From Bradyrhizobium sp. STM 3843 (GTDB lineage: Bacteria; Pseudomonadota; Alphaproteobacteria; Rhizobiales; Xanthobacteraceae), in NCBI RefSeq assembly GCF_000239815.1, contig NZ_CAFK01000299.1:1-64000 (forward strand): a DNA stretch of 64,000 bases, in the 5' to 3' direction. The position numbers and the translations under genes are program-made. This document shows positions 2,859 to 23,237 of this stretch, piece after piece. The notes under the pieces were generated by a model. It searched no databases. It saw only the letters and a program-made list of their open reading frames with translations, and had not been told where the DNA came from. Position 1 is the first letter of the stretch. Every line of letters starts with the position of its first letter.

Positions 2859-2938
2859 CGTCATTGCGGCGTCGAGCGCGCGGACCACGTTGCGGGTCCC
2901 GCAGCTAGTTCCGGTCGCCGACGCCGTCCCCGGAGGTT

Positions 2939-2988
2939 GGAACCTACGCTGTAGGAACAAACGCTCTCCACCAAGGGTTGGAGAGCGG
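2939..2988 (+). promoter_or_regulatory. candidate EcfG-type promoter and hairpin upstream of the DUF4142 gene
   Basis: GGAAC at 2954-2958 is followed after 17 nt by GGTT (2976-2979), close to the general-stress EcfG consensus GGAAC-N16/17-CGTT of alphaproteobacteria. The -10 side overlaps an imperfect inverted repeat, CGCTCTCCA (2962-2970) against TTGGAGAGCG (2978-2987). A second GGAAC at 2939-2943 has no matching -10. The spacing fits but the -10 base is not consensus, so this is tentative. Confidence 0.35.
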
Positions 2989-3042
2989 ATTACGGCCGGC
3001 GATTTCAGCGGGCCGGCAGTGAACCCCCGGAGGGACGACATC

Positions 3043-3597
3043 ATGAAACGCCTGATGATTGTTGCGGGCTGCATTCTCCTTGCAGGTCCGGCTCTTGCTC
3101 AATCGGTAGGAGAAAAGACCGGCGTCAATTCCGCACTCGGAGTGGCACCATCGACCGCCGATTTCGTCAAGGAGGTCGCAATCAGCGATATGTTCGAGAT
3201 CGAGTCAAACAAGCTGGGCGAAGAGAAAGGAACTGCGCAGGACAAAACCTTCGCGAGGCAGATGGTCACCGACCACACCAAGACCAGCACCGAACTGAAG
3301 GGCATGGTCACGTCCGGCAAGGTCAAGGCCGAGCTGCCGACTGCGCTCGACAGCTCCCACCAGAGCAAGCTCGACAAGCTCAAGGGCGAGACGGGCAAGG
3401 ATTTCAGCTCGACTTTCGCCTCCGACCAGGTCAGTGCGCACAAGGATGCGGTCTCGCTGTTCGAGCGCTATGCCAAAGGCGGCGACGACGCCGAGCTGAA
3501 GGACTGGGCCGGCAAGACGCTGCCGACGCTGCGGCACCACCTCGACATGGCGCAAGAATTGAACAAGGCGCCGAGCGTGGGCCAGTCTAACAAATAA
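3043..3597 (+). CDS. secreted DUF4142 protein
   Basis: A 184-aa exported protein. The start at 3043 is chosen because GGAGGG lies about 7 nt upstream and because translation from here begins with a typical signal peptide (MKRLMIVAGCILLAGPALAQS), whereas the longer frame from 2890 has no such start. The mature part is a DUF4142 domain (about residues 40-175): a ferritin-like helical bundle with FVKEVAISDMFEIESNKLG, FARQMVTDHTK and HKDAVSLFERYA. The biochemical role of the family is unknown; members are periplasmic and often stress-induced. The gene stands alone between a glycan operon and a strong terminator. Confidence 0.85.
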   Translation: MKRLMIVAGCILLAGPALAQSVGEKTGVNSALGVAPSTADFVKEVAISDMFEIESNKLGEEKGTAQDKTFARQMVTDHTKTSTELKGMVTSGKVKAELPTALDSSHQSKLDKLKGETGKDFSSTFASDQVSAHKDAVSLFERYAKGGDDAELKDWAGKTLPTLRHHLDMAQELNKAPSVGQSNK

Positions 3598-5619: not shown

Positions 5620-5677
5620 GTCGCCGGGCCTAAGTCTCGTCACGCCCGCGTGCCAATTGTCGCGGAACGATTCATCC

Positions 5678-7558
5678 ATGTTAGCACTGGCGCGTCGCAC
5701 GTCCCTGGCCATCAGTCTCGTCGCAATCGCCAGTGCGATCTCGCCGCTTCATCCATGTGATGCACAGCAATCGTCCGCGGCCGGTACCAGTGATCTGGCC
5801 GAGCGCATGAAGGACCCTGCGCAATGGCCGATGCCGGCGCGCGATTACGCGAACACCCGTTTCAGCGATCTCGATCAGATCAACATCTCCAACGCCTCAC
5901 AGTTGCAGCTCGCCTGGACGTTTTCGGTCGGGGCCGACCGCGGCCAGGAAGCGGCGCCGATCATCGTCGACGGCACCATGTATGTCGTAGGGCCCTATGC
6001 CGGGCCCTATCCGAACCGCGTGTTCGCGCTCGATGCCACCAGCGGCGAGTTGAAATGGTCCTATGCGCCGAAGCCAGAGCCAGCGGCGGCAGGGGTGGCC
6101 TGTTGTGACGTCGTCAACCGCGGGCTCGCCTTCGACAGCGGCAAGGTCTTCCTCAACACCCTCGACGACCACACCGTCGCGATCGATGCCAAGACCGGCA
6201 AGGAGCTGTGGCATACGAAGCTCGGCGAGATCAACAGGGGCGAGACCATCACCATGGCGCCGGTGGTCGCCAAGGGAAAGGTTCTGGTCGGCAACAGCGG
6301 CGGCGAGCTCGGCGTTCGCGGCTGGGTGACCGCGCTCGACGAGAACACCGGAGCGGTCGCCTGGCGCGCCTATGCCACCGGCCCCGACAAGGATGTCCTG
6401 ATCGGCGATGATTTCAAGCCGTTCTACGCCAGTCTCAAAGGCAAGGATCTCGGCGTGAAGACGTGGCCCGCAGATCGCTGGCAGAACGGCGGCGGCACGA
6501 TGTGGGGTTGGATTTCCTATGATCCGGCGTTGAACATGATCTACTACGGCACGGCCAATCCAAGCCCGTGGAATGCCAATCAGCGCAGCGGCGACAATCT
6601 CTGGAGCACCACGATCTTCGCCCGTGACATCGACACGGGCCACGCCAAATGGGCCTACCAGGTCAACCCGCACGATCTGTTCGACCATGACGAAATCAAC
6701 GAGAACGTGCTGGTCGATCTCGACATCAACGGCGCGCCGCGCAAGGTTCTGATCCATCCCGGCCGCAACGGCTATATGTATGTGATCGATCGCACCAGCG
6801 GCGAAGTGCTGTCCGCCGATGCTTATGAGTTCGTCAACGCCTACAAGGGCGTCGACCTCAAAAGCGGCAAGATCATCCCGAATGAGGAGAAGACTCCGGT
6901 TCTCGGCAAGACGATCGAGAACATCTGCCCGTCCGCGCCGGGCGCCAAGGATTGGCAGCCGACGGCGTGGTCGCCGCGCACGAAATTGCTCTACGTTCCG
7001 CACCAGCATCTCTGTATGGATTTTAAGGCATCCGAAGTCGGCTACATCGCTGGCACACCGTTCGTCGGCGCCGATGTCGACATGTATGCCGGCCCCGGCG
7101 GCTATCGCGGCGAGTTCATGGCCTGGGATCCGGTCGCCCGCAAGAAGGTCTGGGAAATCCATGAGAAGCTTCCGGTGTGGTCGGGTGCGCTGGTGACCGC
7201 CGGCGACGTCGCCTTCTACGGCACGATGGACCGCCTCTTCAAAGCGGTGAACGCGAAAACAGGCGAGGTGCTCTGGCAATTCCGCGCCGGCTCCGGCTTC
7301 ATCGGCCAGCCGGTCTCCTATCGCGGCACGGATGGGCAGCAATATATCGCGATCCTCTCCGGGGTCGGCGGCTGGCCGGGCGTGGTCGCCAACGCCGAGG
7401 TCGATCCGAGGGTTCGCAACAGTGCACTCGGCTTCACCGGCGCCACCCAGGACCTGCCGTTCTATACCACCGGGGGCAGCGAGCTTCTGGTGTTCAGGCT
7501 TGGGCCCGGCACAGCCGGCGCGAATCCGCAAGGCACGACCAATGCGCCGTCGCACTGA
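5678..7558 (+). CDS. xoxF: PQQ-dependent methanol dehydrogenase, lanthanide (XoxF) type
   Basis: A 626-aa periplasmic quinoprotein that oxidises methanol or a similar alcohol and passes electrons to cytochrome c. ATG at 5678 is preferred over TTG at 5657 because the signal peptide begins cleanly there. The eight-bladed propeller shows the vicinal cysteines C142-C143 that contact PQQ, the metal-binding GGELGVRG and GTANPSPWN stretches, and PHDLFDHDEIN with Asp336 and Asp338. Asp338 is the extra acid that marks lanthanide-dependent enzymes; calcium MxaF has Ala there. The adjacent xoxJ and xoxG support XoxF over an ExaF/PedH ethanol dehydrogenase, although substrate range is not proven. It overlaps xoxJ by 17 nt and heads an eight-gene run. 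Confidence 0.9.
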   Translation: MLALARRTSLAISLVAIASAISPLHPCDAQQSSAAGTSDLAERMKDPAQWPMPARDYANTRFSDLDQINISNASQLQLAWTFSVGADRGQEAAPIIVDGTMYVVGPYAGPYPNRVFALDATSGELKWSYAPKPEPAAAGVACCDVVNRGLAFDSGKVFLNTLDDHTVAIDAKTGKELWHTKLGEINRGETITMAPVVAKGKVLVGNSGGELGVRGWVTALDENTGAVAWRAYATGPDKDVLIGDDFKPFYASLKGKDLGVKTWPADRWQNGGGTMWGWISYDPALNMIYYGTANPSPWNANQRSGDNLWSTTIFARDIDTGHAKWAYQVNPHDLFDHDEINENVLVDLDINGAPRKVLIHPGRNGYMYVIDRTSGEVLSADAYEFVNAYKGVDLKSGKIIPNEEKTPVLGKTIENICPSAPGAKDWQPTAWSPRTKLLYVPHQHLCMDFKASEVGYIAGTPFVGADVDMYAGPGGYRGEFMAWDPVARKKVWEIHEKLPVWSGALVTAGDVAFYGTMDRLFKAVNAKTGEVLWQFRAGSGFIGQPVSYRGTDGQQYIAILSGVGGWPGVVANAEVDPRVRNSALGFTGATQDLPFYTTGGSELLVFRLGPGTAGANPQGTTNAPSH

Positions 7559-8393
7559 ATCATGGGCCTTCTTGTTCGCGTTTGCCCCGGCCCTTGCGAT
7601 CGGCGTGCCAGGCGCTGTGCGTGCGCAGACGACCTCCCACGAGCTCCGGGTCTGCGCCGATCCGAACAACCTGCCGTTTTCCAATCGGGCGCAGCAAGGC
7701 TTCGAAAACAGGCTCGCCGAAATGATCGCGCAGCGCATCGGCAAGACCGTCAGCTACACTTGGTTTGCACAGCGTCGCGGCTTCATCCGGCACACGCTCA
7801 AAGCCGGCCTTTGCGACGTCGTGATCGGCGTGCCTGCACATTACGACCTGGTTGAGACCACCACGCCCTATTACCGCTCGACCTATGTCCTCGTCAGCCG
7901 CGCCGACCGCCACCTCGATCTCATCGGACTCGACGATCCGAGATTGCGCTCGCTCACAATCGGCGTGCATTTGATCGGCGACGACGGCAACAACCCGCCT
8001 CCAGCGCATGCGCTGGGGCAAGAAGGAATTATCGACAATGTCAGGGGCTTTCCGATCTATGGCGACTATCGCGAGCCCAACCCGCCGGCGCGCCTGATCG
8101 AAGCGGTCGCCAATGGCGATATTGATGTTGCCGCAGCCTGGGGACCGCTGGCCGGCTACTTCGCCAAGCGATCCGCCGTTCCACTGACGATCACGCCAAT
8201 TGAGGATGCCGGCCACTTTGCGCCACAACGCTTCCAATTTGCGATCGCGATGGGCGTACGCAAGGGCGATGACGCGCTACGCGACCAGTTGCAGGCATTC
8301 ATCGACGGGAATCGCAACGCTATTGCAGCACTGCTGCGCGAATTCGGCGTTCCGCTCGTCGACGAGGCACAGGCCGCATCCGGAGGACACTGA
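7542..8393 (+). CDS. xoxJ: XoxJ/MxaJ-like periplasmic binding protein
   Basis: A 283-aa quinoprotein-associated periplasmic protein with the solute-binding-protein fold. ATG at 7542 lies inside the end of xoxF and gives a signal peptide (MRRRTESWAFLFAFAPALAI...GAVRAQ); the longer open frame upstream is antiphase to xoxF and not coding. The mature N-terminus LRVCADPNNLPFSN and the stretches KTVSYTWFAQRRGFIRHTLKAG and DIDVAAAWGPLAGYF are typical of the MxaJ/XoxJ branch. Family members are thought to help activate or mature the methanol dehydrogenase rather than to transport sugars. xoxG starts 1 nt after its stop. Confidence 0.88.
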   Translation: MRRRTESWAFLFAFAPALAIGVPGAVRAQTTSHELRVCADPNNLPFSNRAQQGFENRLAEMIAQRIGKTVSYTWFAQRRGFIRHTLKAGLCDVVIGVPAHYDLVETTTPYYRSTYVLVSRADRHLDLIGLDDPRLRSLTIGVHLIGDDGNNPPPAHALGQEGIIDNVRGFPIYGDYREPNPPARLIEAVANGDIDVAAAWGPLAGYFAKRSAVPLTITPIEDAGHFAPQRFQFAIAMGVRKGDDALRDQLQAFIDGNRNAIAALLREFGVPLVDEAQAASGGH

Positions 8394-8394
8394 G

Positions 8395-9027
8395 ATGCAT
8401 GCGAGCGGTCGAACTGCGCTGATTGTCCTCACACTCGCGGCGACGGGCGGTTGCGCCGCGCTGGCGCAGCAGGCACTCCCATCATCCGAGGAAGCGCAAT
8501 TGCCTTCTATGCAGCCGCAGCCGGATGTGGGTGCGTCGATCGGCGGTGGCCAGCCGGGGCGATTCATACAGGTGCCGGTCAGCCATCTTTCCCCGAACGG
8601 CATCCGCAGCGCGCCAGACATCAAGAACCCGGCGCAGGGCGATCCGAAGTCGGCCGAGCGCGGCATGCGCTATTTCATCCAGTTCAACTGCGTCGGTTGC
8701 CATGCACCAGCCGGCGGCGGCGGCATGGGTCCCGCGCTCAGCAACAACTTCTTCATCTACGGGTCGCAGCCCGCCAACATCTATCTTTCGATTTATCAGG
8801 GCCGTCCGAACGGCATGCCGGCCTGGGGGGCCACACTGCCGGACACGGTGATCTGGGATCTCGTCACCTACATCGGCAAGATCAGCAACGAGCCCACGCC
8901 TGAGTGGGGACGCACCTTCTCGGCGTCGCCGTTGTCGCCGGCCGTCGAACAAATCCCTGCGGAAAAGGCCGCCACACCTGATCCATGGGCGGCAACAACG
9001 ACCTTTAAGCAGGGCCAGAAGCCATAG
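8395..9027 (+). CDS. xoxG: XoxG-like cytochrome c (electron acceptor of XoxF)
   Basis: A 210-aa monoheme cytochrome c. ATG at 8395 is 1 nt after the xoxJ stop, with GGAGGA at 8382-8387. The N-terminus (MHASGRTALIVLTLAATGGCAALAQQ) is a signal peptide; a Cys after GG leaves lipoprotein processing possible. The heme site is CVGCH (C99, C102, H103), followed by GGGGMGP, and the likely distal ligand is Met in GRPNGMPAWG. Position directly after xoxFJ makes it the natural acceptor of XoxF electrons, and the oxidase genes that follow 3 nt later give it an obvious partner. Confidence 0.87.
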   Translation: MHASGRTALIVLTLAATGGCAALAQQALPSSEEAQLPSMQPQPDVGASIGGGQPGRFIQVPVSHLSPNGIRSAPDIKNPAQGDPKSAERGMRYFIQFNCVGCHAPAGGGGMGPALSNNFFIYGSQPANIYLSIYQGRPNGMPAWGATLPDTVIWDLVTYIGKISNEPTPEWGRTFSASPLSPAVEQIPAEKAATPDPWAATTTFKQGQKP

Positions 9028-9030
9028 CAG

Positions 9031-10137
9031 ATGCGCAGACGATTGGAGCGCGCAGTGTCGAATGGAGAGCAAATACTGCCGAGCCCGAGGACGGCCCAAG
9101 GTCGCGGTAGTCCGGCCACTCGGTCGATCCTTGCGCTTGCGCTGCCTTGCCTCCTGCTGTCGACCAAAGTCGCTTCCGCCGAAACGCCTTTGGACTATCT
9201 GATCACCCACGGTGCCCGCGCCGATTCCATTGCTCACCTGGCCTGGTTCTCGACTGCGGTCTCCGTGCTGGTGATCCTCATCGTGACAGCCCTGCTGCTG
9301 GTTGGCATGTTTCGCCGCCGCGACCTGCCGCCGCCTGCGCTTCCCGGCCTGGCTGCGATTGCACGACCGCAAGACGGCATATCGTGGATCTATGTCGGCG
9401 TCGGCATCACCACCGTCGTGCTGCTGATCACCACCTTCTGGACCTTCGCCACCCTCGCCAGGACCGGACCGCAACCCGGCCCTGCGGCCGTGCGGCTCCT
9501 GATCACCGGTCACCAATGGTGGTGGGAAGTGCGCTATCTCGCCGACACGCCTTCCGATGAATTCACCACCGCGAATGAAATCCATATCCCGGTCGGCAAG
9601 GTGGTCGAGGTCAAGCTGCGCGGCGACGACGTCATTCATTCGTTCTGGGTGCCGAAGCTCGCCGGAAAGACGGATATGATCCCCGGACAGGAAAACCAGA
9701 CCTGGCTGCAGGCCGATCGAGAAGGCGTCTATCGCGGCCAATGCGGCGAGTACTGCGGACAGCAGCATGCGCACATGGCCTTCGAGGTAGTGGCGTCCTC
9801 GGCAGACGACTTCGAGCAATGGCGCCAGCAACAGCTCCAATCGGCGCCACCCCTCTCCGGTGCCGCGCTCCAGCAGGGCGAAATGCTGTTCGATAGCCGC
9901 TGCGGCATCTGCCACCGCGTCCGCGGGACCACAGCGGGCGGCATCGTCGGGCCTGACCTCACCCACATCATGAGCCGGCGCGCGATCGGTGCGGCGACCT
10001 TGCCGAACAATCGCGGCAATCTCGCCGCCTGGATCGCCGATCCCCAGCACACCAAGCCTGGCAATCTGATGCCGCGCCTCGATCTCTCCGGGCCGCAATT
10101 GACGCTGATCCGGCAATATGTCGAGACACTTAAGTAG
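9031..10137 (+). CDS. coxB: caa3-type cytochrome c oxidase subunit II with fused cytochrome c
   Basis: A 368-aa subunit II (CoxM-like). An N-terminal signal or membrane segment is followed by two transmembrane helices (about residues 60-85 and 110-140), the CuA domain and a C-terminal cytochrome c. CuA ligands are intact: HSFWVP plus CGEYCGQQHAHM (C-x3-C-x3-H-x2-M). The heme motif is CGICH, with Met in NLMPRLDL as likely sixth ligand. The fused heme domain is the mark of caa3 oxidases, which accept electrons from a cytochrome c. The start at 9031 lies 3 nt after xoxG; a GTG at 9055 is an alternative. Subunit I follows after 8 nt. Confidence 0.9.
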   Translation: MRRRLERAVSNGEQILPSPRTAQGRGSPATRSILALALPCLLLSTKVASAETPLDYLITHGARADSIAHLAWFSTAVSVLVILIVTALLLVGMFRRRDLPPPALPGLAAIARPQDGISWIYVGVGITTVVLLITTFWTFATLARTGPQPGPAAVRLLITGHQWWWEVRYLADTPSDEFTTANEIHIPVGKVVEVKLRGDDVIHSFWVPKLAGKTDMIPGQENQTWLQADREGVYRGQCGEYCGQQHAHMAFEVVASSADDFEQWRQQQLQSAPPLSGAALQQGEMLFDSRCGICHRVRGTTAGGIVGPDLTHIMSRRAIGAATLPNNRGNLAAWIADPQHTKPGNLMPRLDLSGPQLTLIRQYVETLK

Positions 10138-10145
10138 GAGCACGC

Positions 10146-12083
10146 ATGACCGCGACGGAATATGATCGCGCTCCCCGGGTCGCCGTACGCGACTATGCGT
10201 CTCCGCTCGCGGAGAAGCTCAACGCTTTATGGGAAACCAAGCCGGGCGTGATCGGCTGGCTGTCCTCGGTCGACCACAAGGAGATCGGGCTCCGTTACAT
10301 CGTCACATCGTTCATCTTCCTGATCGTGGGTGGAATTGAAGCGCTGATCTTCCGCCTCCAGATCACGCAACCCAATGAGACCCTGCTGACGCCCGAGCAG
10401 TACAACGAACTGTTCACGATGCACGGCGCGACCATGATCCTATGGTACGCCTTTCCGATCCTGACCGGCTTCAGCGTGTTCCTGCAACCGCTCGTCATCG
10501 GCACTCGCGACATGGCGATGCCGCGGCTGAACGCCTTTACTTACTGGCTGTTTCTCTTTTCCGGCATCTATCTCTATGTGGGATTTGCGATCGGCGAGGC
10601 GCCGAATGACGGCTGGTTCAACTACGTGCCTTACGCCTCGCGCCCGTTCAATCCGGGCCTCAACATCGATTTCTATGCCCTATCGAACATCCTGCTGGGG
10701 ATTTCGACCACGCTTGGCTCGTTGAATTTCGTCGTCACCCTCCTGCACATGCGTGCGCCGGGCATGTCGATCAACCGGCTGCCGATCTTGAGCTGGGGCA
10801 CGCTGACCATCTCGGTCGGCAACCTGTTCGCGATGCCGAGCGTCACGCTGGCCTTTTTCCTGTTGTGGATGGACCGTCAGTTCGCAACCCATTTCTATCG
10901 GCCCCCGACGGGACAGCCGCTGCTGTGGCAGCACCTGTTCTGGATGTGGGGGCATCCCTGGGTCTACGTGATCGTGCTACCGGCCATCAGCATGGTGTCG
11001 GAAGCGCTGCCGATTTTGTGCCGCCGCCCTCTGGTCGGCTACACTGCCGTGGCGCTGGCGACGGTGCTGACCATGGTGCTCGGTTTCGGCGTCTGGCTGC
11101 ACCACATGTTCGCGACGGGATTGCCGGGACTGGCGCTGTCGTTCTTCAGCGCCGTGTCGATCCTCATCGTGATTCCGAGCGCGGTGTCGGCCTTCGCCTG
11201 GCTCGGTACGATCTGGACCGGACGCCCGGTCTTCAACACCGCTTTCCTGTTCTTCGCCGGCTTCATCGTCGTGTTCGTGATCGGCGGCGTATCGGGCTTC
11301 ATGACCGGCTCGGTCCCGGTCGATTGGCAGCTCACCGATACCTATTTCGTCGTCGCCCATATCCATTATGTGCTGATCGGCTGGAACCTGTTTCCGGTGA
11401 TGGGCGCGAGCTATTTCTGGTTTCCGAAAATGTTCGGCAAGCTGCTCGACGAGCGGCTCGGCCGCTGGAATTTCTGGTTCATGTTCGTCGGCTTCAACGT
11501 CGGCTTCTTCCCGATGCATATCAGCGGCCTGCTGGGCATGCCGCGCCGCATCTACACTTTTCCCGAGGGCATGGGCCTCGACACCATCAATCTGATCACG
11601 ACGATCGGCAGCTATGTCTTCGCGGTCGGCTTCCTGCTCTTCATCATCAACGTCGTACTCAGCCTCAGGCATGGCCAGGACGCCGGCCCAAATCCCTGGG
11701 ACGCCGCCACGCTCGAATGGACCACGCCGTCACCGCCCCCACCCTACAATTTTGTCGTCCTGCCGACGCTGGCGACGCGGACCCCGCTGTGGGAAACACG
11801 GCTCAGGGAATCGCCTTATCATTCCGATCTCGGCAAGGGCTTTCCACTCGATCACGGCAAGGAGGCGCTGGCAACGACAACGCTGGATGCCCAGCCGGAA
11901 GCAATCCTGAGAATGCCGGAGGATTCGCTGATGCCGCTGCTGCTGGCGCTCGCACTCACGGCCCTGTTCGCCGGGCTGATCGTCAAGCTGTGGTGGTTGG
12001 TGATCGCCTCCCTCGTCGTCGGCCTCATCTTTCAGCTGATCTGGCTCTGGCCGCGGGCCAAGCTTGCCGAACGGAGGCCCTGA
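10146..12083 (+). CDS. ctaD: cytochrome c oxidase subunit I (xox-linked), proton-channel residues replaced
   Basis: A 645-aa heme-copper oxidase subunit I (CoxN-like) with twelve core transmembrane helices and a C-terminal extension with further hydrophobic helices. Heme and copper ligands are present: His in TMHGATM, H270 in GHPWVY with the crosslinking Tyr274, the pair in LHHMFATG, and AHIHYV. Compared with the Paracoccus aa3 enzyme, the D-channel Glu (E278, motif GHPEVY) is Trp272 and the K-channel Lys (K354, motif PTGIK) is Ser348, while the D-channel entry Asp is kept (D122). The reaction centre therefore looks functional but its proton supply does not follow the A1 pattern. RBS TAGGAG precedes ATG; the stop overlaps the next start. 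Confidence 0.9.
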   Translation: MTATEYDRAPRVAVRDYASPLAEKLNALWETKPGVIGWLSSVDHKEIGLRYIVTSFIFLIVGGIEALIFRLQITQPNETLLTPEQYNELFTMHGATMILWYAFPILTGFSVFLQPLVIGTRDMAMPRLNAFTYWLFLFSGIYLYVGFAIGEAPNDGWFNYVPYASRPFNPGLNIDFYALSNILLGISTTLGSLNFVVTLLHMRAPGMSINRLPILSWGTLTISVGNLFAMPSVTLAFFLLWMDRQFATHFYRPPTGQPLLWQHLFWMWGHPWVYVIVLPAISMVSEALPILCRRPLVGYTAVALATVLTMVLGFGVWLHHMFATGLPGLALSFFSAVSILIVIPSAVSAFAWLGTIWTGRPVFNTAFLFFAGFIVVFVIGGVSGFMTGSVPVDWQLTDTYFVVAHIHYVLIGWNLFPVMGASYFWFPKMFGKLLDERLGRWNFWFMFVGFNVGFFPMHISGLLGMPRRIYTFPEGMGLDTINLITTIGSYVFAVGFLLFIINVVLSLRHGQDAGPNPWDAATLEWTTPSPPPPYNFVVLPTLATRTPLWETRLRESPYHSDLGKGFPLDHGKEALATTTLDAQPEAILRMPEDSLMPLLLALALTALFAGLIVKLWWLVIASLVVGLIFQLIWLWPRAKLAERRP

Positions 12084-12694
12084 TGACGATCGTCACGATA
12101 TCCCGTGATGATCTGCCGATCGGCAGCGTCACCTCTCGGACGGTCGGCTGGTGGAGCATGATCGCGGCTATCATCACCGAAGCGTCGCTGTTTGCCTATC
12201 TGCTGTTTGCCTATTACTATTTCGCCGTGCAGCGGCGCGGCGAGATGTGGCCGGCGGAAATGCCGACCTTCAAGCTCGCAGCCCCGAATACGGTCATCCT
12301 GCTGGTCTCAAGCGTCGCCGTGTGGTTCGGCGAGCGCGGCGGGCACGAGGGCGTACGCTGGAAGCAGACGGCCGGCATGGGCATCGGCTTCGTCCTCGGC
12401 GTGATCTTCGTCACCATCCAGGTGTTCGAGTGGAAGGCGAAGTCGTTCAGCCTCAATTCGGGCCCTTACGGCTCGATCTTCTTCGTCGTGACCGGCTTCC
12501 ACATGGGCCACGTCGTGCTCGGCCTGATCATGCTGCTGCCGCTCACGCTCTGGTCGGCGCTCGGATATTTCGGCCCCGGGCGCGACGCGCCGATCTCGAT
12601 CGGCGCCATCTACTGGCACTTCGTCGACGCGGTTTGGCTGGTGGTGTTCTTCAGCCTCTACATCACGCCATATCTGGGGCTGCGCCATGGCTGA
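12083..12694 (+). CDS. cytochrome c oxidase subunit III
   Basis: A 203-aa membrane protein with about five transmembrane helices, matching short (CoxO-like) subunits III. Visible family features are WWSMIAAIITEASLFAYL, FEWKAKSF, the helix TGFHMGHVVLGL and IYWHFVDAVWLVVFF near the C-terminus. The ATG at 12083 shares its A with the TGA of subunit I (TGATG), so the two should be translated in step. It belongs to the same oxidase complex. Confidence 0.9.
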   Translation: MTIVTISRDDLPIGSVTSRTVGWWSMIAAIITEASLFAYLLFAYYYFAVQRRGEMWPAEMPTFKLAAPNTVILLVSSVAVWFGERGGHEGVRWKQTAGMGIGFVLGVIFVTIQVFEWKAKSFSLNSGPYGSIFFVVTGFHMGHVVLGLIMLLPLTLWSALGYFGPGRDAPISIGAIYWHFVDAVWLVVFFSLYITPYLGLRHG

Positions 12695-13127
12695 CGAAGC
12701 CTCGCTCCGGCGCGCCGGACATCCCGCCCCGCACCGCAACCGCGTCAGCATCGGCTGGCTGCTCGCGGCGCTGTTTGCACCACCGATCGGCTGGTCGCTG
12801 CACCTGATCGCAAACTATGCGCTGGCAAGTCACAGCTGCTATCCCGGCAGCGTGCCCAAGTCCCCGACATCGCCGGCAGGGCTTTGGGCGCTTCTGATTG
12901 CAATCGACGTCGTCAGCCTCGCAATATCGCTGGCCGCGATCGTGTTCGCCTACCGCGCCTGGCAGGCCAGTATCCGGGAAATGGCCCAACATGAATCGCC
13001 CATGGTCGAAACCGGCGAAGGCCGCACGCGTTTTCTGGCGGTCTGGGCGCTGCTGATTGGCAGCCTGTTCTTTCTGACCGTCGCATCGGACAGCGCGGCG
13101 CTCTGGATATTGAAGACATGCAGCTGA
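12687..13127 (+). CDS. small membrane protein of the caa3 oxidase cluster (CoxP-like position)
   Basis: A 146-aa protein with three hydrophobic segments (about residues 23-46, 68-90 and 115-140). It overlaps the subunit III gene by 8 nt and ctaG by 10 nt, so it belongs to the oxidase operon. In coxMNOP-type clusters a second small subunit sits in this position. I see no metal-binding or catalytic motif, and sequence similarity to known subunits is not obvious by eye. A structural or assembly role is inferred from position only. Confidence 0.7.
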   Translation: MADEASLRRAGHPAPHRNRVSIGWLLAALFAPPIGWSLHLIANYALASHSCYPGSVPKSPTSPAGLWALLIAIDVVSLAISLAAIVFAYRAWQASIREMAQHESPMVETGEGRTRFLAVWALLIGSLFFLTVASDSAALWILKTCS

Positions 13128-14104
13128 ACATCCGCGCAGGTCTGCTGCTGGTCGCGATGGCGCTGCCGCTACGAGCCATGGCGCATAGTGCAGGCTCTGC
13201 GCCAGGCTTTCCGGAGCGGCTGTCGGCGGCCGGCTGGAGCCTGGATGCGTCGACGATGATTCCCCTTGCGCTGGCCACCGGCTGGTATGCCTTCGGCATT
13301 ATCAGCGCAATGCGCGAGAACAAAACCGAGCTGCTCTCACCTGCGCGCACCATCGCATTTGCCGGCGGCATCGTGATCCTGTTGCTGGCACTGAATTCGC
13401 CCATCGATACGATCAGCGAGGACCTGTTCTCGGTGCACATGATCCAGCATCTCCTGCTGATGCTGGGGGCGCCCCCGCTGCTGGTCTGGAGCGACTGCCC
13501 CGCCATTTTTCTGCGCGCGTTCCCGCGCCCGGCGCGGAAGCGGATCGTGCGGCTGTGGATCACGCTCGGCTTCGGCCGCGCCTACCATATGCTGATGCAT
13601 CCGCTCCTGGTCTGGGTGCTGTTCACAGGCGCATTCGTGTTCTGGCACGCGCCAGGACCGTACCAATGGGCGCTTGATGACAATGCCGTACACATCGTCG
13701 AGCACCTGAGCTTCTTCGTGACATCGCTGATGTTCTGGTCGATCGTGCTGCCGCCCCATCAGCACGCGCGTCGCCTGGCGCACGGGTCGACCCTGCTGCT
13801 GATCGTGTCAACCGCGGTGCTGAGCGGCCTGCCGGGGGCATTGATGATCTTCGCGCCACGCCCGCTGTATCCAGGTCACGCGGCGGGCGTGATGAAATGG
13901 GGCCTGACCTTGATGGAGGACCAGCAGCTGGCGGGCCTGATCATGTGGATCCCAGCCGGTGGTGCCTATGTGCTTGCTGCCGCGCTGGTGTTCCTGAGCT
14001 GGCTCGATGAAGCCGAAGCGCGGGCGCTGCGGACCGCGCGACGCGGCGCTGTGGTTCAAGCTCGCCCCCAGGTGCAAGGAACGCCTGGCATCGCCAGCGA
14101 TTGA
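13118..14104 (+). CDS. ctaG: caa3 oxidase assembly factor, CtaG (DUF1404-like membrane) family
   Basis: A 328-aa polytopic membrane protein of the caa3-type CtaG family, not the Cox11 protein that shares the name. It has a signal-like N-terminus and about seven helices. Family marks are HMIQHLLLMLGAPPLL, HAPGPYQWALDDNAVHIVEHLSFF, the histidine-rich helix ends, and the C-terminal EDQQLAGLIMWIPAGG. Such proteins are needed to assemble caa3 oxidase, probably at a copper step. The second oxidase cluster has its own paralogue at 22347. This is the last gene of the overlapping xox/cox run. Confidence 0.85.
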   Translation: MQLNIRAGLLLVAMALPLRAMAHSAGSAPGFPERLSAAGWSLDASTMIPLALATGWYAFGIISAMRENKTELLSPARTIAFAGGIVILLLALNSPIDTISEDLFSVHMIQHLLLMLGAPPLLVWSDCPAIFLRAFPRPARKRIVRLWITLGFGRAYHMLMHPLLVWVLFTGAFVFWHAPGPYQWALDDNAVHIVEHLSFFVTSLMFWSIVLPPHQHARRLAHGSTLLLIVSTAVLSGLPGALMIFAPRPLYPGHAAGVMKWGLTLMEDQQLAGLIMWIPAGGAYVLAAALVFLSWLDEAEARALRTARRGAVVQARPQVQGTPGIASD

Positions 14105-16770: not shown

Positions 16771-17901
16771 ATGTTGTCAGCTCAATCGAACTGGATCGCG
16801 GCCGCCAAGCTGGGGCTGGTCAGCAGCACCTTCTCCACGCTGGTCAGTCAGCTCGCCGCGGCGCGAATCGGGCGCGATGCCGCGGTCGACTGGATGACGG
16901 TCGCCGCCATTCCCTTGCGTGACGGCGTGATCACAGCAGAGCCGAGCTGGGGCGCGATCGCAGGCGGGATCGCTTTCCATCAATGGGCCGACTTCTCCTG
17001 GGCGCTGGTGTTCTTCGGCCTGTTCGGCCGCTGGACTGCAGAGCTTCGACCACTCACTATCTTCGCGGTCGCGATGCCTTGGGCCGTTTTCACCTCGGCA
17101 ACCGAGTGGCTGCTGCTGGTGCCCCTGTTTCCGTTCTTCCAGCCGATCTTCACCTTGCAGCAGCCCTATTGGATCGGCCTGCTGGTCCACATGTCATCGG
17201 CTGCGATGTATCCGCTGTTCGCGTGGTTGCGGTTCCCGCTCGGCGCCGCACCCCGATCGCCTGAGGTCCGCTTCGCCAAGGCCTGGGCTCGCGGTGGCGC
17301 CGCCGTGGTCGCGATCCTCGGTGCGATGGCAGGCTTTGGTGCGTCGGTGCGCGAGTTCCCGTGGCTAGGAATGGATCGCGTCGCGGACCAGGACTACATC
17401 CGCCATATGACGACGCATCACCGCCAGGGCATCGTGCTGGCACTGCTCGGCACTGAGCGCGCACGCGATCCCTCTCTGCAATCGCTTGCACGTCTGATGG
17501 TCGCGAGGCAGGCCGGCGAGAACCGCATCTTCGACAATTGGTGGCAAAGCTGGTTCGGCACGCCAATGCCGGACTGCAGCGCGCAGGAACGCGCGGACAT
17601 GCCGGGCTATTTGACGCAAGCGCAGATGCAAGAGGCACGCGACGCCAGTCCTGAGCAGTTCGATGCCGTCTTCATTCAACTGATGAGCGTTCATCACCGG
17701 GGCGCGGTCGCGATGGCCGATCAGGAATGGCACGGCCAGGGTGACCTCAGGCTGCGCATCATGGCGCATGCCATCCGCCACGAGCAGCAGGGCGAGATCG
17801 CGCTGATGAACGGCGTTGAAGGCATCGCCGCGGTCCGAACCGCCATCGCCAACATGACGTCCGACAACGTGAACGGAATGGATCAAGCTGGAACTCACTA
17901 G
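16771..17901 (+). CDS. membrane protein with C-terminal DUF305 domain
   Basis: A 376-aa protein in two parts. Residues 1-150 are hydrophobic, with about four membrane helices (for example WADFSWALVFFGLFG and FTSATEWLLLVPLFPFF); another helix near residues 170-190 leads to a DUF305 domain (about 190-355). The DUF305 part has the two characteristic His-rich helices, HMTTHHRQGIVLAL and LMSVHHRGAVAMADQEWHG, a ferritin-like bundle proposed to bind metal, often copper. Domain function is not established. It is followed 49 nt later by the second cytochrome/oxidase cluster and could help supply copper to that oxidase; this is inference from position. Confidence 0.75.
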   Translation: MLSAQSNWIAAAKLGLVSSTFSTLVSQLAAARIGRDAAVDWMTVAAIPLRDGVITAEPSWGAIAGGIAFHQWADFSWALVFFGLFGRWTAELRPLTIFAVAMPWAVFTSATEWLLLVPLFPFFQPIFTLQQPYWIGLLVHMSSAAMYPLFAWLRFPLGAAPRSPEVRFAKAWARGGAAVVAILGAMAGFGASVREFPWLGMDRVADQDYIRHMTTHHRQGIVLALLGTERARDPSLQSLARLMVARQAGENRIFDNWWQSWFGTPMPDCSAQERADMPGYLTQAQMQEARDASPEQFDAVFIQLMSVHHRGAVAMADQEWHGQGDLRLRIMAHAIRHEQQGEIALMNGVEGIAAVRTAIANMTSDNVNGMDQAGTH

Positions 17902-17950
17902 GAACCGATCGGCCGTTCGAAGATTGTACGTTCCGTTTCAGGATCTCACC

Positions 17951-18511
17951 ATGCGGATGGTCGTGCTGTTGATCTGCATCGTGACGTTGGGAGGATGTGA
18001 GCGGGAGAAGCGCGAGCTGCGGCTCGATCCTCCGGTCGCGGCTGCGTTGGACAAGATCGCGCTGATGCAGAACCGCATCGCCGGTGCACCGCCGCAGGTT
18101 TACTTCGCGCTCGACAGGCCGTTCGAGACCAACGCCTACAACCTGAGTGAGGGCAAACGGCTTTACACCTGGTTCGGCTGCAAGGGTTGCCATGGCGATG
18201 GCCAAGGCGGCATCGGACCATCCTTCCTGGACGGATGGTGGTACTACGGCCCGGAGATGGTCTCGATCTTCGCCTCGATCCGCGATGGCCGCCCGCATGG
18301 CATGCCGGCGTTCAAGAACAAGATGACGACCGACGAGATCTGGCAGCTCGCCGGCTATGTCCAGACCATCGGCGCCTACTCGGCCAAGACCGCGGCGCCC
18401 TCACGGAACGACGACAAGCAGGTGCGTCCGTCCGAAAACCGCGCGCCGGCTGCGATCCTGTTCGACCAGGGTCCGACCCCCGTTCATCCCGATCAGGGGC
18501 CGACGCCGTGA
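17951..18511 (+). CDS. cytochrome c lipoprotein
   Basis: A 186-aa monoheme cytochrome c. ATG at 17951 gives a lipoprotein signal peptide with lipobox LGGC at residues 13-16, better than the TTG start 27 nt upstream. The heme motif is GCKGCHGDGQGGIGPSF, and the distal Met is likely in RPHGMPAFKNKM. It resembles the XoxG-like cytochrome at 8395 (DGWWYYGPEMVSIFASIRDGRPHGMPAF against FFIYGSQPANI...GRPNGMPAW). Its GTGA overlap with the next gene puts it at the head of the second caa3 cluster, where it probably feeds the oxidase. A Pro-rich tail (DQGPTPVHPDQGPTP) carries a short tandem repeat. Confidence 0.85.
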   Translation: MRMVVLLICIVTLGGCEREKRELRLDPPVAAALDKIALMQNRIAGAPPQVYFALDRPFETNAYNLSEGKRLYTWFGCKGCHGDGQGGIGPSFLDGWWYYGPEMVSIFASIRDGRPHGMPAFKNKMTTDEIWQLAGYVQTIGAYSAKTAAPSRNDDKQVRPSENRAPAAILFDQGPTPVHPDQGPTP

Positions 18512-19518
18512 TCCGGCGCGTTGCGCGGCTACTAGCTCTGCTCGCCGCGATATCGCTCGCCGGCTGTGAGAACTGGCAGTCTGCCTTGCAGGCGCATGGC
18601 GCGTCCGCGATCAGTCTGAAGCACCTGATCATCTTCATCGTCGCGGTGTGCTCGATCGTCTGGGCGCTTGTGATGGTGGCCATGATCTACGCATTGGCGC
18701 GCCGGCGTGCGGCTTGGCGAGCACCGACGGAGCTCATTCCTGAGCGCGAGCGCCGCATGGGCCGCATCGTTACCGCCTGCGTCGGGCTGACCGTGGTGAT
18801 CATCTCGATCTTCACGCTCGCGAGTTTCTTCACCACCCGAGCCCTCAGCGTCGCCGGCAGCGACGACCTCACCATCCGCATCAGCGGCATGCAATGGTGG
18901 TGGGGCGTGCAATATCTCAGACCCAATCCGAAGCAGGCGTTCGACACCGCCAACGAGATCCATATCCCGGCCGGACGGAACGTGCACCTGGTGCTCGAAG
19001 GCGACGACGTGATCCATTCCTTCTGGGTGCCGAGCCTTGCCGGCAAACAGGATCTCATTCCCGGGAGGATCAACGAGATCACGATCCGCGCCGAGCGCCC
19101 TGGGATCTATCGCGGCCAATGTGCGGAGTTCTGCGGCTTGCAGCATGCGCACATGTCTTTCTTCGTCATCGCCGATGAGCCGCAGGATTTCGAGCGCTGG
19201 GCGGCCGCGCAGCGCGCGCCTGCGACGCAGGCGTCCGACGAGGAAATCGCTGCCGGCCGCGATGCGTTCATGTCGAAACCGTGCGCCGCCTGCCACAGCA
19301 TCCGCGGCACAAAGGCAACGGGCACGAGCGGCCCGGATCTGACCCATGTCGGCAGTCGCAAGACCATCGGCGCCGGCCTGTTCGAGACCACGCGCGGCTC
19401 GCTCGCGGCCTGGATCGCCGATCCGCAGACCTTGAAGCCGGGCAACAACATGCCGCTGGTGCCGCTGGCGCCCGAGGAGCTGCGCGCGATATCGGCCTAT
19501 CTGGCGAGCCTGAAATGA
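18508..19518 (+). CDS. coxB: caa3-type cytochrome c oxidase subunit II with fused cytochrome c (second copy)
   Basis: A 336-aa lipoprotein subunit II. GTG at 18508 overlaps the upstream TGA and gives MIRRVARLLALLAAISLAGC with a lipobox. Two membrane helices follow (about residues 36-62 and 82-108). CuA ligands are complete (HSFWVP; CAEFCGLQHAHM), and the C-terminal heme domain has CAACHSIRG with Met in GNNMPLVPL. It is a paralogue of the protein at 9031 but has its own lipid anchor. Start and stop overlap both neighbours by 4 nt. Confidence 0.9.
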   Translation: MIRRVARLLALLAAISLAGCENWQSALQAHGASAISLKHLIIFIVAVCSIVWALVMVAMIYALARRRAAWRAPTELIPERERRMGRIVTACVGLTVVIISIFTLASFFTTRALSVAGSDDLTIRISGMQWWWGVQYLRPNPKQAFDTANEIHIPAGRNVHLVLEGDDVIHSFWVPSLAGKQDLIPGRINEITIRAERPGIYRGQCAEFCGLQHAHMSFFVIADEPQDFERWAAAQRAPATQASDEEIAAGRDAFMSKPCAACHSIRGTKATGTSGPDLTHVGSRKTIGAGLFETTRGSLAAWIADPQTLKPGNNMPLVPLAPEELRAISAYLASLK

Positions 19519-21428
19519 CAGAGACAATAGCGCGCGCGGAAACACTGGACACGGAGCTCGATGGCACGAGGCTCGCCACCGCACTGGCGCAGACCTGGAA
19601 GACGGAGCGCGGGCTGTGGGGCGCGCTGACGACGGTCGACCACAAGATCATCGGTCGCCGCTACATCGTCACCGCGTTCGTCTTCCTCGTGCTCGGCGGC
19701 GTGCTGGCGCTGCTGATGCGGCTGCAACTTGCGCAACCCGAGGCGCGGGTGCTGGGGCCTGATCGATTCAACCAGGTGTTCACGATGCACGGCGCGAACA
19801 TGATGTTCCTGTTCGCGGTACCGGTGATGGAAGCGATGGGGGTCTATCTGGTGCCGCTGATGGTCGGCACCCGCAACATCGCCTTCCCGCGGCTCAACGC
19901 ATTCTCCTACTGGATCTTCCTCGCCGGCGGCCTGCTGCTGTGGATCGCCTTCGCACTCGACATGGGTCCCGATGTCGGCTGGTTCGCCTATGTACCGTTG
20001 TCAGGCCCGCAATATGCGCCGGGCAAGCGCGCCGACATCTGGGCGCAGATGATCACCTTCACGGAGCTCGCGGCGCTGGCGGTGGCAGTCGAAATCGTCG
20101 TCACCGTGTTCAAGCAGCGCGCGCCCGGCATGTCGCTCGACCGCATCCCGCTGTTCGTGTGGTCGATGCTGGTCACCTCCTTCGTGGTCATCATGGCGAT
20201 GCCGGCGATCATGGTGGCGAGCACGAGCCTGATCCTGGATCGCCTGGTCGGCACCCATTTCTTCAATCCGGCCGAGGGCGGCGACGTGCTGCTGTGGCAG
20301 CATCTGTTCTGGTTCTTCGGCCATCCGGAAGTCTACATCATCTTCCTGCCGGCGGTCGGCATGGTGTCGACGTTGATCGCGACCTTCGCCCGGCGTCCCA
20401 TATTCGGTTATCTCGCGCTCGTCATGGCGCTGATTGCGACCGGCATTCTCGCCTTCGGCCTGTGGGTGCACCACATGTTCGTGACCGGCCTGCCGCGGCT
20501 CGGCGAGAGCTTCTTCACCGCCTCCAGCATGGCGATCGCGATTCCGGCCGGCATTCAGATCTTCTGCTGGATCGCCACGCTCTGGGACGGCAGGCCGGTG
20601 TTCAAGACGCCGTTGTTGTTCGTGATTGGCTTCATTGTCACCTTCGTGATCGGCGGGCTGACCGGGGTCATGGTGGCCTCGGTGCCGTTCGACACCCAGG
20701 TGCACGACACCTATTTCGTTGTCGCCCACTTCCACTACGTGCTGATCGGCGGCGCCGTGTTCCCGCTGCTCGGCGCCGTCTACTACTGGTTTCCGAAATT
20801 TACCGGGCGCATGATGAGCGAGCGCCGCGGCAAGTGGGCGTTCTGGCTGATCTTCATCGGCTTCCATCTTACCTTCTTCCCGATGCACATCCTCGGCCTC
20901 GAAGGAATGCCGCGGCGCATCTACACCTATCAGCCGGATTTACCCTGGCATGGGCTGAACCTGTTCGTCAGCGCAAGCGCGCTGATCCTTGCCGCCGGCT
21001 TCCTGATCTTCTTCATCGACGCGATCATCAGCGCACGGTCCGGCAATCCGGCCGGCGACAATCCCTGGGATGCGCCGACCTTGGAATGGGCGACCAGCTC
21101 GCCTCCGCCCGCCTACAATTTCGCGCATATCCCGGTTGTCGGCAGCGCCTATCCGCTGTGGGACCAGCCGGGATCGCTCAATGTCGCGAGCGGGCTGCAT
21201 AGCGACCGGCGCGAGATCGTGATCACGACCATCACCATCGCGGAGCCGCAGGCACGCGAGTCTTCGCCGCAAAACTCGATCTGGCCGCTGCTCACGGCGA
21301 TCACCACCACCATCATGCTGATCTGGTCGATCTTCTCGCCATGGGCCGTCGTGTGGGGCTCGATCCCGGTCGCGATCACGCTGATCGGCTGGTTCTGGCC
21401 GAGCGGCACGCCGGAGGACGAGGCATGA
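19515..21428 (+). CDS. ctaD: cytochrome c oxidase subunit I (second copy), D- and K-channel residues altered
   Basis: A 637-aa heme-copper oxidase subunit I. All redox ligands are visible: TMHGANM, GHPEVY (H270, Y274), VHHMFVTG and AHFHYV. The D-channel Glu is present (E272), but the Asp at its entry (Paracoccus D124, motif PDMAFPR) is Asn121 in TRNIAFPR, and the K-channel Lys is Gln348 in PAGIQ. The paralogue at 10146 shows the opposite D-channel pattern. Asn at the entry Asp is known from mutants of aa3 oxidase to block pumping, so this enzyme may pump poorly or use another path. It overlaps both neighbours by 4 nt. Confidence 0.9.
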   Translation: MTETIARAETLDTELDGTRLATALAQTWKTERGLWGALTTVDHKIIGRRYIVTAFVFLVLGGVLALLMRLQLAQPEARVLGPDRFNQVFTMHGANMMFLFAVPVMEAMGVYLVPLMVGTRNIAFPRLNAFSYWIFLAGGLLLWIAFALDMGPDVGWFAYVPLSGPQYAPGKRADIWAQMITFTELAALAVAVEIVVTVFKQRAPGMSLDRIPLFVWSMLVTSFVVIMAMPAIMVASTSLILDRLVGTHFFNPAEGGDVLLWQHLFWFFGHPEVYIIFLPAVGMVSTLIATFARRPIFGYLALVMALIATGILAFGLWVHHMFVTGLPRLGESFFTASSMAIAIPAGIQIFCWIATLWDGRPVFKTPLLFVIGFIVTFVIGGLTGVMVASVPFDTQVHDTYFVVAHFHYVLIGGAVFPLLGAVYYWFPKFTGRMMSERRGKWAFWLIFIGFHLTFFPMHILGLEGMPRRIYTYQPDLPWHGLNLFVSASALILAAGFLIFFIDAIISARSGNPAGDNPWDAPTLEWATSSPPPAYNFAHIPVVGSAYPLWDQPGSLNVASGLHSDRREIVITTITIAEPQARESSPQNSIWPLLTAITTTIMLIWSIFSPWAVVWGSIPVAITLIGWFWPSGTPEDEA

Positions 21429-22027
21429 GGGAGCGCGTCGTTCTCGATCTCTCCAAGCTGCCGTTGCACGGACTTGGCAGCGCCAGCGTCACCTGGTGGG
21501 GCACGCTCGGCTTCATGCTGATCGAAGGCACTGGATTCGCCCTCGTCATCGCCGTCTATCTCTATCTAATGAGCCTGGCGCCGATCTGGCCGCTCAACGC
21601 GCCGCCGCCGGCCCTGCTGCCGGGAACGCTGCTCACGGTCATCCTGCTCATCAGCGTGATTCCAAATGTGCTGATCTCGCGCTGGGCCAGGCAGCAGGAT
21701 CTGCGCAAGGTGCAGATCGGCATGGTCGTGATGTCGGTGTTCGGCATCGTGCCGCTGATCGTCCGCGCGTTCGAGTTCCCCGCGCTCAACGTCAAATGGG
21801 ACACCAATGCCTATGGCTCGATCGTCTGGACCCTGCTCGGGCTGCACACCACGCATATCCTGACCGATCTTGTCGACACGCTGGTACTGGCGGCGCTGAT
21901 GTTCAGCCGACACGCCGACAATCCGCGTCGCTTCGGCGATGTCGAGGACAACGCAATGTATTGGAACTTTGTCGTCGCCACGTGGCTTCCCATCTACGGC
22001 TGCATCTATTGGTTGGCACGGCTATGA
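21425..22027 (+). CDS. cytochrome c oxidase subunit III-like protein (second copy)
   Basis: A 200-aa, five-helix membrane protein matching short subunit III proteins: WWGTLGFMLIEGTGFALVIAVYLY, RAFEFPALNVKWDTNAYGS, a membrane helix with LHTTHILTDLVDTLVL and MYWNFVVATWLPIYG. It is more diverged from standard subunit III than the copy at 12083 (Thr-Thr-His instead of HMGH in the fourth helix). ATGA overlaps on both sides place it firmly in the oxidase operon. Confidence 0.82.
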   Translation: MRERVVLDLSKLPLHGLGSASVTWWGTLGFMLIEGTGFALVIAVYLYLMSLAPIWPLNAPPPALLPGTLLTVILLISVIPNVLISRWARQQDLRKVQIGMVVMSVFGIVPLIVRAFEFPALNVKWDTNAYGSIVWTLLGLHTTHILTDLVDTLVLAALMFSRHADNPRRFGDVEDNAMYWNFVVATWLPIYGCIYWLARL

Positions 22028-22359
22028 GGCTACCAAGCACCTCGGCGAAATTGATGGCCTGGGCCGGCCTGGTGATCGGCGGGGTGATCTGGGCTGCCAA
22101 TACCCAGCTCGGCGATATCCTTTCGACGCGTGACTGCATCGCGACAGCGCGGCCGTCGACCCTCATCTCCTTCGCCGGCATGCTCATCATGCTTGCCTCG
22201 GCCACGATCTCCTGGCGCCTCGACAGCCGCCCGTCGATCGGCGACGATCGGAGCTTGCCGTTTGCCTCGCGCTTGAGCGCGCTCTCCGCGCTTGTGTTTG
22301 CCTTTGCGGTTGCGTTACAAGGCGCCGCCTCGCTGGTGCTGAGCGGATGCGAACGCTGA
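22024..22359 (+). CDS. small membrane protein of the second oxidase cluster
   Basis: A 111-aa protein with three hydrophobic helices (about residues 10-27, 43-62 and 82-105) and two lone cysteines, one near the C-terminus (LSGCER). It occupies the same place as the 146-aa protein at 12687 in the first cluster, between subunit III and ctaG, and both have three helices, so they may be diverged counterparts. No motif allows a functional call. It overlaps subunit III by 4 nt and ctaG by 13 nt. Confidence 0.7.
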   Translation: MRLPSTSAKLMAWAGLVIGGVIWAANTQLGDILSTRDCIATARPSTLISFAGMLIMLASATISWRLDSRPSIGDDRSLPFASRLSALSALVFAFAVALQGAASLVLSGCER

Positions 22360-23237
22360 TTGCCATCGCTCTCCTTGCCGCCGCGAGCGGCACAGCGCTC
22401 GCGCATGGCGCTGCGACGGACGAACTGACCGCTTCGTGGACGTTCGATCCCTGGATCCTCTCACCGCTGCTTTCAATCGCGGGATTCTACGCCGCGGGAA
22501 GCCTGGTTCTATCCAGGCGGCGCAAGCGCCGCCGCGCAAGCTGGCGCGCGCTCGCCTTCTGGTCGGGCTGGGTGAGCCTGGCGATTGCACTGGTCTCGCC
22601 GCTGCATTGGCTGGGCGAGCATCTCTTCACCTTCCACATGATCGAGCATGAGATCCTGATGGCGGTCTCGGCGCCGCTGATCGTGGCCGCCCGGCCCATC
22701 GGCGTGATGCTGTGGGCGCTCCCGCAGCCCGCGCGGCGGCAGGCCGGCACGCTGCTGCGCAGTGCGCTGGTGCGTGCTACCTGGAGCGCGCTTGCCAGCG
22801 GCGGCACGGCCACCCTGCTCCACGGCATCGCGATCTGGGTCTGGCATGCGCCGATCCTGTTCGATGCCGCCGTCGAGAACGTCACGCTGCACCGGCTGCA
22901 GCATGTGAGCTTCTTCGTCACCGCCGTTCTGTTCTGGTGGGCCGTGCTCTGGCGCAGCCCGACCGGGCAAGCGGCCTGGCACGTCATCGTCACCATGTTT
23001 CACACCAGCGTGCTGGGCGCGCTGATGGCGCTGGCGCCGCGGGTGCTCTATGGCGTGCAGACCGCGACGGCCGCAGACTGGGGTCTTACGCCGCTCGAGG
23101 ACCAGCAGCTCGCCGGGATCATCATGTGGGTGCCGGCCGGCACGATCTACGCCGGAGCGGCGCTGACCCTGCTCGCATTATGGATCCGACGCTCCAGCGA
23201 GAAAGCGAGGCAAGCCGATGTCCTCAATGCTGTCTAG
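22347..23237 (+). CDS. ctaG: caa3 oxidase assembly factor CtaG (second copy)
   Basis: A 296-aa membrane protein of the caa3 CtaG family and paralogue of the protein at 13118. A cleavable N-terminus (MRTLIAIALLAAASGTALAHG) precedes about seven helices. Shared marks are HMIEHEILMAVSAPLIV, IWVWHAPILFDAAVENVTLHRLQH split across a helix, and the C-terminal EDQQLAGIIMWVPAGT. The mature N-terminus begins HGAATDE, placing a His at the exported end as in the other copy (HSAGSAP). It should assist copper-centre assembly of the second oxidase. Confidence 0.85.
   Translation: MRTLIAIALLAAASGTALAHGAATDELTASWTFDPWILSPLLSIAGFYAAGSLVLSRRRKRRRASWRALAFWSGWVSLAIALVSPLHWLGEHLFTFHMIEHEILMAVSAPLIVAARPIGVMLWALPQPARRQAGTLLRSALVRATWSALASGGTATLLHGIAIWVWHAPILFDAAVENVTLHRLQHVSFFVTAVLFWWAVLWRSPTGQAAWHVIVTMFHTSVLGALMALAPRVLYGVQTATAADWGLTPLEDQQLAGIIMWVPAGTIYAGAALTLLALWIRRSSEKARQADVLNAV

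Follow-up and report, generated by a model that had tools for sequence, protein, structure and literature searches.

A cytochrome c oxidase lineage with tryptophan at the D-channel glutamate site, encoded with a XoxF-type dehydrogenase in Bradyrhizobium sp. STM 3843

The oxidase operon and the proton-channel residues of its COX1

The stretch of DNA that we analyzed (64,000 nucleotides from Bradyrhizobium sp. STM 3843; hereafter the window) contains an oxidase operon with the genes for XoxF, XoxJ, cytochrome c, COX2, COX1, COX3, a small protein, and CtaG in this order, all on the forward (+) strand and separated by small gaps or overlaps. The first gene (5657..7558; start uncertain, with the earliest ATG at 5678) encodes a XoxF-type PQQ alcohol dehydrogenase (TIGR03075, 644.5 bits), of which the nearest solved chain is 4mae. 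It is followed by genes for a XoxJ/MoxJ-like periplasmic protein (7542..8393; TIGR03871, 301.7 bits) and a c-type cytochrome (8395..9027; PF13442 and PF00034), XoxG-like by position. COX2 (9031..10137; TIGR02866 above cut-off) has a CuA site (motif at residue 238) and a fused cytochrome c domain (CXXCH at 291). COX1 (10146..12083) is 645 amino acids long and has two additional C-terminal helices, and COX3 (12083..12694; NF050119/CyoC-type matches on 12110-12694) has 203 amino acids and five hydrophobic segments. The small protein (12687..13127), which is kept in many relatives of the operon, gave no match in Pfam and NCBIfam profile searches, and the last gene (13118..14104; PF09678, 194.4 bits) encodes a CtaG (Caa3_CtaG) assembly factor. 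DUF4142 and DUF305 proteins (window 2890-3597 and 16771-17901) flank the oxidase region. An Rfam scan returned no match. The linkage of this COX1 to xox genes, part of the original prediction, was borne out: the XoxF-type dehydrogenase of the operon bears the lanthanide-type Asp pair, its D-H-D aligning to D-Y-D of 4mae, whereas 4tqo has Ala at the second position. Most likely, the oxidase serves this lanthanide-type XoxF dehydrogenase.

The translated COX1 contains LFWMWGHPWVYVIVLP and IVIPSAVSAFAW; its helix VI reads MWGHPWVYVIVLP and its helix VIII IPSAVSAFAW. Sites were numbered by alignment to a solved mycobacterial COX1 and also to the canonical COX1 of the same genome (L001) and from there to Rhodobacter (Rs) 1m56. 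By translation and alignment, Trp272 (codon 10959..10961, +; pattern match at 10950-10967) falls on Rs Glu286, which is Glu278 of Paracoccus (Pd), and Ser348 (codon 11187..11189, +) on Rs Lys362, which is Pd Lys354; both replacements, originally proposed from an alignment by eye, thus stand. Both motifs are free of gaps, the closest gap (2 residues, in the mycobacterial alignment) lying ∼20 residues ahead of Ser348. Misalignment or a frameshift as the source of Trp272 and Ser348 was rejected because the frame is open and relatives agree, and an isolated mutation, chance, or a sequencing error because relatives also carry Trp and have a residue other than Lys at the second site. According to the COX2 alignment, the subunit II Glu at the mouth of the K-channel is also gone in the window and in its relatives. 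The CuB ligands (His-270, His-319, and His-320), the heme ligands (His-93, His-405, and His-407), and Tyr274 are all intact, and O2 reduction would still be expected of this COX1, as was first supposed, because it retains Tyr274 together with every metal ligand. In A2-type oxidases, a Tyr (the YS motif) replaces Glu278. We confirmed that this motif is absent, with Trp268-Gly269 directly preceding His-270; relatives have Phe or Trp and then Gly or Ala before the CuB His, and one (L065) has Tyr but without Ser.

Distribution and ancestry of the Trp-type lineage

Peptide patterns derived by aligning five Trp-type proteins were used to search a named-genome collection, and of the 88 loci obtained, the best 80 were retained. 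Trp occupies the Glu site in 71 of these 80 and Glu or Asp in the remaining nine; the proportion is no census, since the patterns came from a Trp-type alignment, which biased the search, and only the best 80 of 88 were kept. The 71 Trp-type loci belong mainly to Pseudomonadota, including Sphingomonas, Paraburkholderia, Nitrosomonas, Methylobacter, Methylocystis, and Aurantimonas; outside this phylum were two Acidobacteriota, one Myxococcota, and one Actinomycetota metagenome-assembled genome (MAG). In Paraburkholderia xenovorans LB400, Trp-type copies (L085 and L096) are found on two chromosomes, 1 and 3. The DNA pattern for GHPWVY, which overlooks AHPWVY members, occurred in 13 of 398 genomes of the phylum, with a true COX1 in 4, and, inside a longer pattern, in 2 of 297 genomes of an Acidobacteriota sample, with a true COX1 in 1; the pattern match L152 was set aside because it lies in no open COX1 frame. 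These matches suggest that Trp-type COX1 is wide but uncommon in its distribution. Six close Trp-type pairs gave dN/dS values of 0.04–0.21, which indicates that the Trp type is under purifying selection. Across 71 further genomes of this genus, the top match among those listed reached 49% identity, and all 11 same-genus loci that we inspected have Glu and Gln at the two sites; the window operon was therefore probably gained by horizontal transfer as an accessory.

For residue counts, we removed the window copies (L004, L009, and L043), identical relatives (L010, L039, L045, and L082), and L127 and L131, which left 70 non-redundant rows of the Trp clade; L119 and L123 are partial rows. In these 70, which were picked for Trp, the Lys site is Ala in 53, Ser in 6, Gly in 6, and Thr in 5. 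As an observation on the accompanying subunit, COX2 in 22 of 68 Trp-type loci (e.g. L085, L105, and L059) has Gln, Ala, or Val for the Glu of the CuA loop C-x-E-x-C, and the Cys, His, and Met of CuA are retained.

In a tree with both trait columns hidden (55 of 119 rows, L131 left out), the main Trp clade had 100/100 support and was nested in a larger clade marked by replacement of Lys by Gln, itself supported at 100/100 against two outgroup rows with Glu and Lys; a quick tree of all 119 rows agreed. Gln stands at the Lys site in all 38 Glu- or Asp-bearing rows of the larger clade, and five other rows, very different oxidases, have Glu and Lys. Because the Trp clade lies inside the Gln clade and because the subunit II Glu is absent in both groups (within the alignment coverage), the K-channel was lost first and the D-channel Glu second. 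Further, an actinobacterial MAG (L127) represents a second origin of Trp on a Gln background, separate from the main clade (p-AU 0.007), and L131, which has Trp and Gln, groups with the Trp clade in the 119-row tree and looks intermediate between the two types; its gene, from a MAG, is split across two frames. The trees thus indicate that Trp replaced the D-channel Glu twice, both times on a Gln background, and that in the main Trp clade Gln later gave way to Ala, Ser, Gly, or Thr.

The Gln type is also represented in the window. A second COX operon (17924-23628; COX1 at 19515-21428) keeps GHPEVY and has PAGIQ, with Gln for the K-channel Lys, and its subunit II likewise lacks the K-channel Glu. 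Elsewhere in the collected loci, six Actinomycetota (L121, L122, L124, L125, L128, and L130) have Asp (HPDVY) for the D-channel Glu and Gln for Lys. In five Gln-type loci (L027, L030, L032, L035, and L038), the CuA cysteines of COX2 are gone, the motif reading SAEFSG or SSEFSG, and the COX1 frames are ∼850–900 amino acids long; these are possibly quinol oxidases, judging by these features.

Dehydrogenase linkage is common among Trp-type oxidases but not universal. At loci with at least 6 kb on each side, a PQQ dehydrogenase was present in 25 of 47 Trp-type loci compared with 2 of 18 Gln-type controls (Fisher p 0.002, uncorrected for relatedness); counting incomplete loci, the figures are 34 of 71 and 2 of 20. 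The D-x-D pair was found in 35 of 35 dehydrogenases (34 linked to Trp-type oxidases and that of the window) and also in both Gln-type control dehydrogenases. No PQQ dehydrogenase was seen at the Burkholderiaceae and Nitrosomonas loci, and in the one locus of each that we examined (L096 and L105, respectively), the operon is followed instead by a large cytochrome c protein.

Relation to known oxidases and operons

The window COX1 is almost certainly a genuine A-family, caa3-like cytochrome c oxidase. Its sequence and fold are overall nearest to A types, with Z scores of 42.5 to bo3 8qqk and 40.4 to caa3 2yev in the fold comparison. The A1, A2, B, and C types are defined by their D- and K-channel residues, as laid out in the text of PMC3084760, and the Trp-type lineage, although A-family by fold and sequence, matches none of these definitions in full. 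It shares with A1-type aa3 and caa3 enzymes the fold, the metal sites, the active-site Tyr, the lower D-channel, and the proton-loading region but lacks Glu278, Lys354, and the subunit II K-channel Glu. Compared with the A1 D-channel list given there (Asp124, Asn199, Asn113, Asn131, Tyr35, Ser134, Ser193, and Glu278; PMC3084760), the window keeps the Asp, Asn199, Asn131, and the Tyr and has Thr at both Ser positions, Val at Asn113, and Trp at Glu278; compared with the K-channel list (Lys354, Thr351, Ser291, and Tyr280; PMC3084760), it has Ser348 at the Lys and Ser345 at the Thr and keeps Ser285 and Tyr274. We rejected membership in A2, given Trp268-Gly269-His270 in place of the YS motif; in B, with which the window COX1 shares the absence of Glu and Lys, because the window keeps most of the D-channel residues that B-type (ba3) enzymes, with K-channel residues of their own, lack and its B-type match is far weaker (E value of ∼1e-9 versus 1e-138); in C, because Tyr274 is on helix VI and the C-type Tyr on helix VII; and among NO reductases (NOR), because Tyr274 is present (70 of 70 Trp-type rows). 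The Gln-type sister COX1 (e.g. 19515-21428; 41–48% identity) also lost Lys and the subunit II Glu but still has an acid, Glu or Asp, at the D-channel Glu site and often occurs without XoxF.

The plan of the operon matches that of COX operon type a-II (Degli Esposti 2014, PMC4013037), which shares a COX1 of 630–670 amino acids with a C-terminal extension, a five-helix COX3, and a PQQ dehydrogenase in the operon; in type a-II, the extension is described as resembling COX4. That paper ties the dehydrogenase to MxaF, whereas that of the window is XoxF-type, and its main text contains neither D-channel nor K-channel nor proton channel (word counts of 0). XoxF3-Cox gene clusters have been described for Acidobacteria (PMC10875860), in the available text without residue analysis; the window gene is assigned only as XoxF-type. 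What is known, as far as the text of these two sources goes, is thus the operon plan and the XoxF3-Cox clusters, and neither notes the proton residues. In the open-access literature, with subscription papers mostly and supplements outside its reach, we found no paper on the Trp variant, and the terms HPWVY, GHPWVY, E278W, and E286W were absent.

Proton uptake without the D-channel glutamate

It had been predicted that the enzyme must take up protons by another route or pump little, as would suit an operon for fast electron disposal. The first of these was not borne out: another route is not required, since the residues of the lower D-channel vary little or not at all throughout the Trp clade. 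Little pumping and fast electron disposal are plausible predictions. Tyr33, Asp132, Asn139, Ser200, and Asn207 (Rs numbering) occur without exception in all 70 Trp-type rows, and further sites vary little (Ser142 is Ser in 66 and Thr in 4, Ser201 is Thr in 68 and Ser in 2, and Asn121 is Asn in 63). The corresponding residues of the window are Tyr51, Asp122, Asn129, Asn194, Ser187, and Thr188, with deviations at Rs Asn121 (Val111) and Rs Ser142 (Thr132). The lower D-channel is better preserved in the Trp clade than in the Glu-bearing sister group: in the 38 Glu- or Asp-bearing Gln-group rows, Asn207 is Glu in 28, and Asn139 is Asn in only 18. This conservation is suggestive and not proof, because about one third of the membrane columns are invariant across the Trp clade and the residues may be kept for structure. 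The structure alignment consisted of 42 rows hand-picked from the collected loci. Separately, COX1 of the Gln group has new Glu residues at Rs 117 and Rs 207 (28 of 38 rows each), in or near the D-channel, which may represent another channel redesign.

We favor, at a little short of an even chance, a reading in which protons are taken up from the cytoplasm along a D-channel without its Glu and pumping is reduced. Electrons from XoxF would pass to cytochrome c, the fused cytochrome c domain, CuA, heme a, and the binuclear center; protons for water formation would enter from the cytoplasm through the conserved lower D-channel and then be relayed past Trp272 over the final stretch by water or hydroxyls, with no Glu acting as a valve. 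Charge separation during O2 reduction would persist, and pumping would be reduced or lost. In Rhodobacter, replacement of Glu286 severely impairs proton transfer in the D-pathway, as reported in the text of PMC6934443; if protons do take this path, the loss of Glu must therefore be compensated in some way. Val111 and Thr132 of the window COX1 also speak against this reading, as does the result that our sequence comparison found no protonatable group in place of the D-channel Glu.

An acid newly present at the former K-channel entrance counts against uptake through the D-channel and suits a rival, which we consider unlikely, namely that protons enter by a K-channel that has no Lys, as they do in B and C types. 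Position 286 is Asp or Glu in 67 of 70 Trp-type rows and in none of the 38 Gln-group rows; beside Ser285, it would substitute for the subunit II Glu, and Ser345, Thr306, Thr309, and water would lead on to Tyr274. These residues are well kept (Ser285 and Thr309 in 69 and Ser345 and Thr306 in 70 of 70 rows), and B types function without Glu or Lys, according to the text of PMC3084760. However, Ala predominates at the former Lys site (53 of 70), which varies more than any other channel site, the entire Gln ancestor group was already without Lys and the subunit II Glu, and position 286 is Thr in L127, where Trp arose a second time. The B-type Tyr positions, moreover, are presumably Met and Ser in the COX1 studied here, which also counts against this path.

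Normal or near-normal pumping, with Tyr101 (helix II), Glu65 (helix I), or ordered water in the role of Glu, seems to us quite unlikely. In its favor, the proton-loading region (Rs Arg481, Arg482, Asp407, and Trp172) is retained in the Trp clade, Tyr101 is found in 69 of 70 Trp-type rows compared with Phe in 37 of 38 Gln-group rows, and Glu65 is found in 70 of 70 compared with 7 of 38. However, Glu-bearing mycobacterial enzymes also have Tyr101, and L127 combines Trp with Phe101 and Gln65, so that the case for Tyr101 as a stand-in is weakened. Further, Thr or Asn replaces His411 of the Mg site in 66 of 70 rows, and the helix positions of Tyr101 and Glu65 were assigned from sequence. It is very unlikely, in our view, that the enzyme is non-electrogenic, disposing of electrons quickly without conserving energy and drawing periplasmic protons as does cNOR, which shows that such a plan exists (text of PMC3084760); each cytoplasmic entry is without a key residue, but the cytoplasmic mouth of the D-channel is invariant. 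Finally, that the gene encodes no functional O2 reductase, being instead in decay or specifying a NO reductase, is highly improbable: both proton residues are lost, the relative L131 is frame-split, and the window COX1 scores 642.5 against the TIGR02891 cut-off of 670.75, but Tyr274 (70 of 70), the absence of which marks NOR (text of PMC3084760), and all CuB and heme ligands are retained, the dN/dS values speak against decay, and sNOR of ammonia oxidizers was rejected as B-type (text of PMC6967387), even though Trp-type genes occur in two Nitrosomonas.

Coming back to uptake through the D-channel, an enzyme in which the K-channel was dismantled, the D-channel Glu became Trp, and the rest was kept would be a D-only enzyme without a Glu valve, a description that we offer with considerable doubt. 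If true, it would mirror the B and C types, which use the K-channel only, and would often be tied to lanthanide-dependent alcohol oxidation. Current models hold the D-channel Glu to be the key branch point between protons for chemistry and pumped protons. Because a natural Glu-less lineage exists under purifying selection, and because Glu, Asp, or Trp is found at this site in relatives with a Gln background, the requirement for this Glu becomes testable. The Trp-type lineage would thus be a natural test of the mechanism of proton pumping, with a bearing on the energy conserved by lanthanide-dependent methanol oxidizers.
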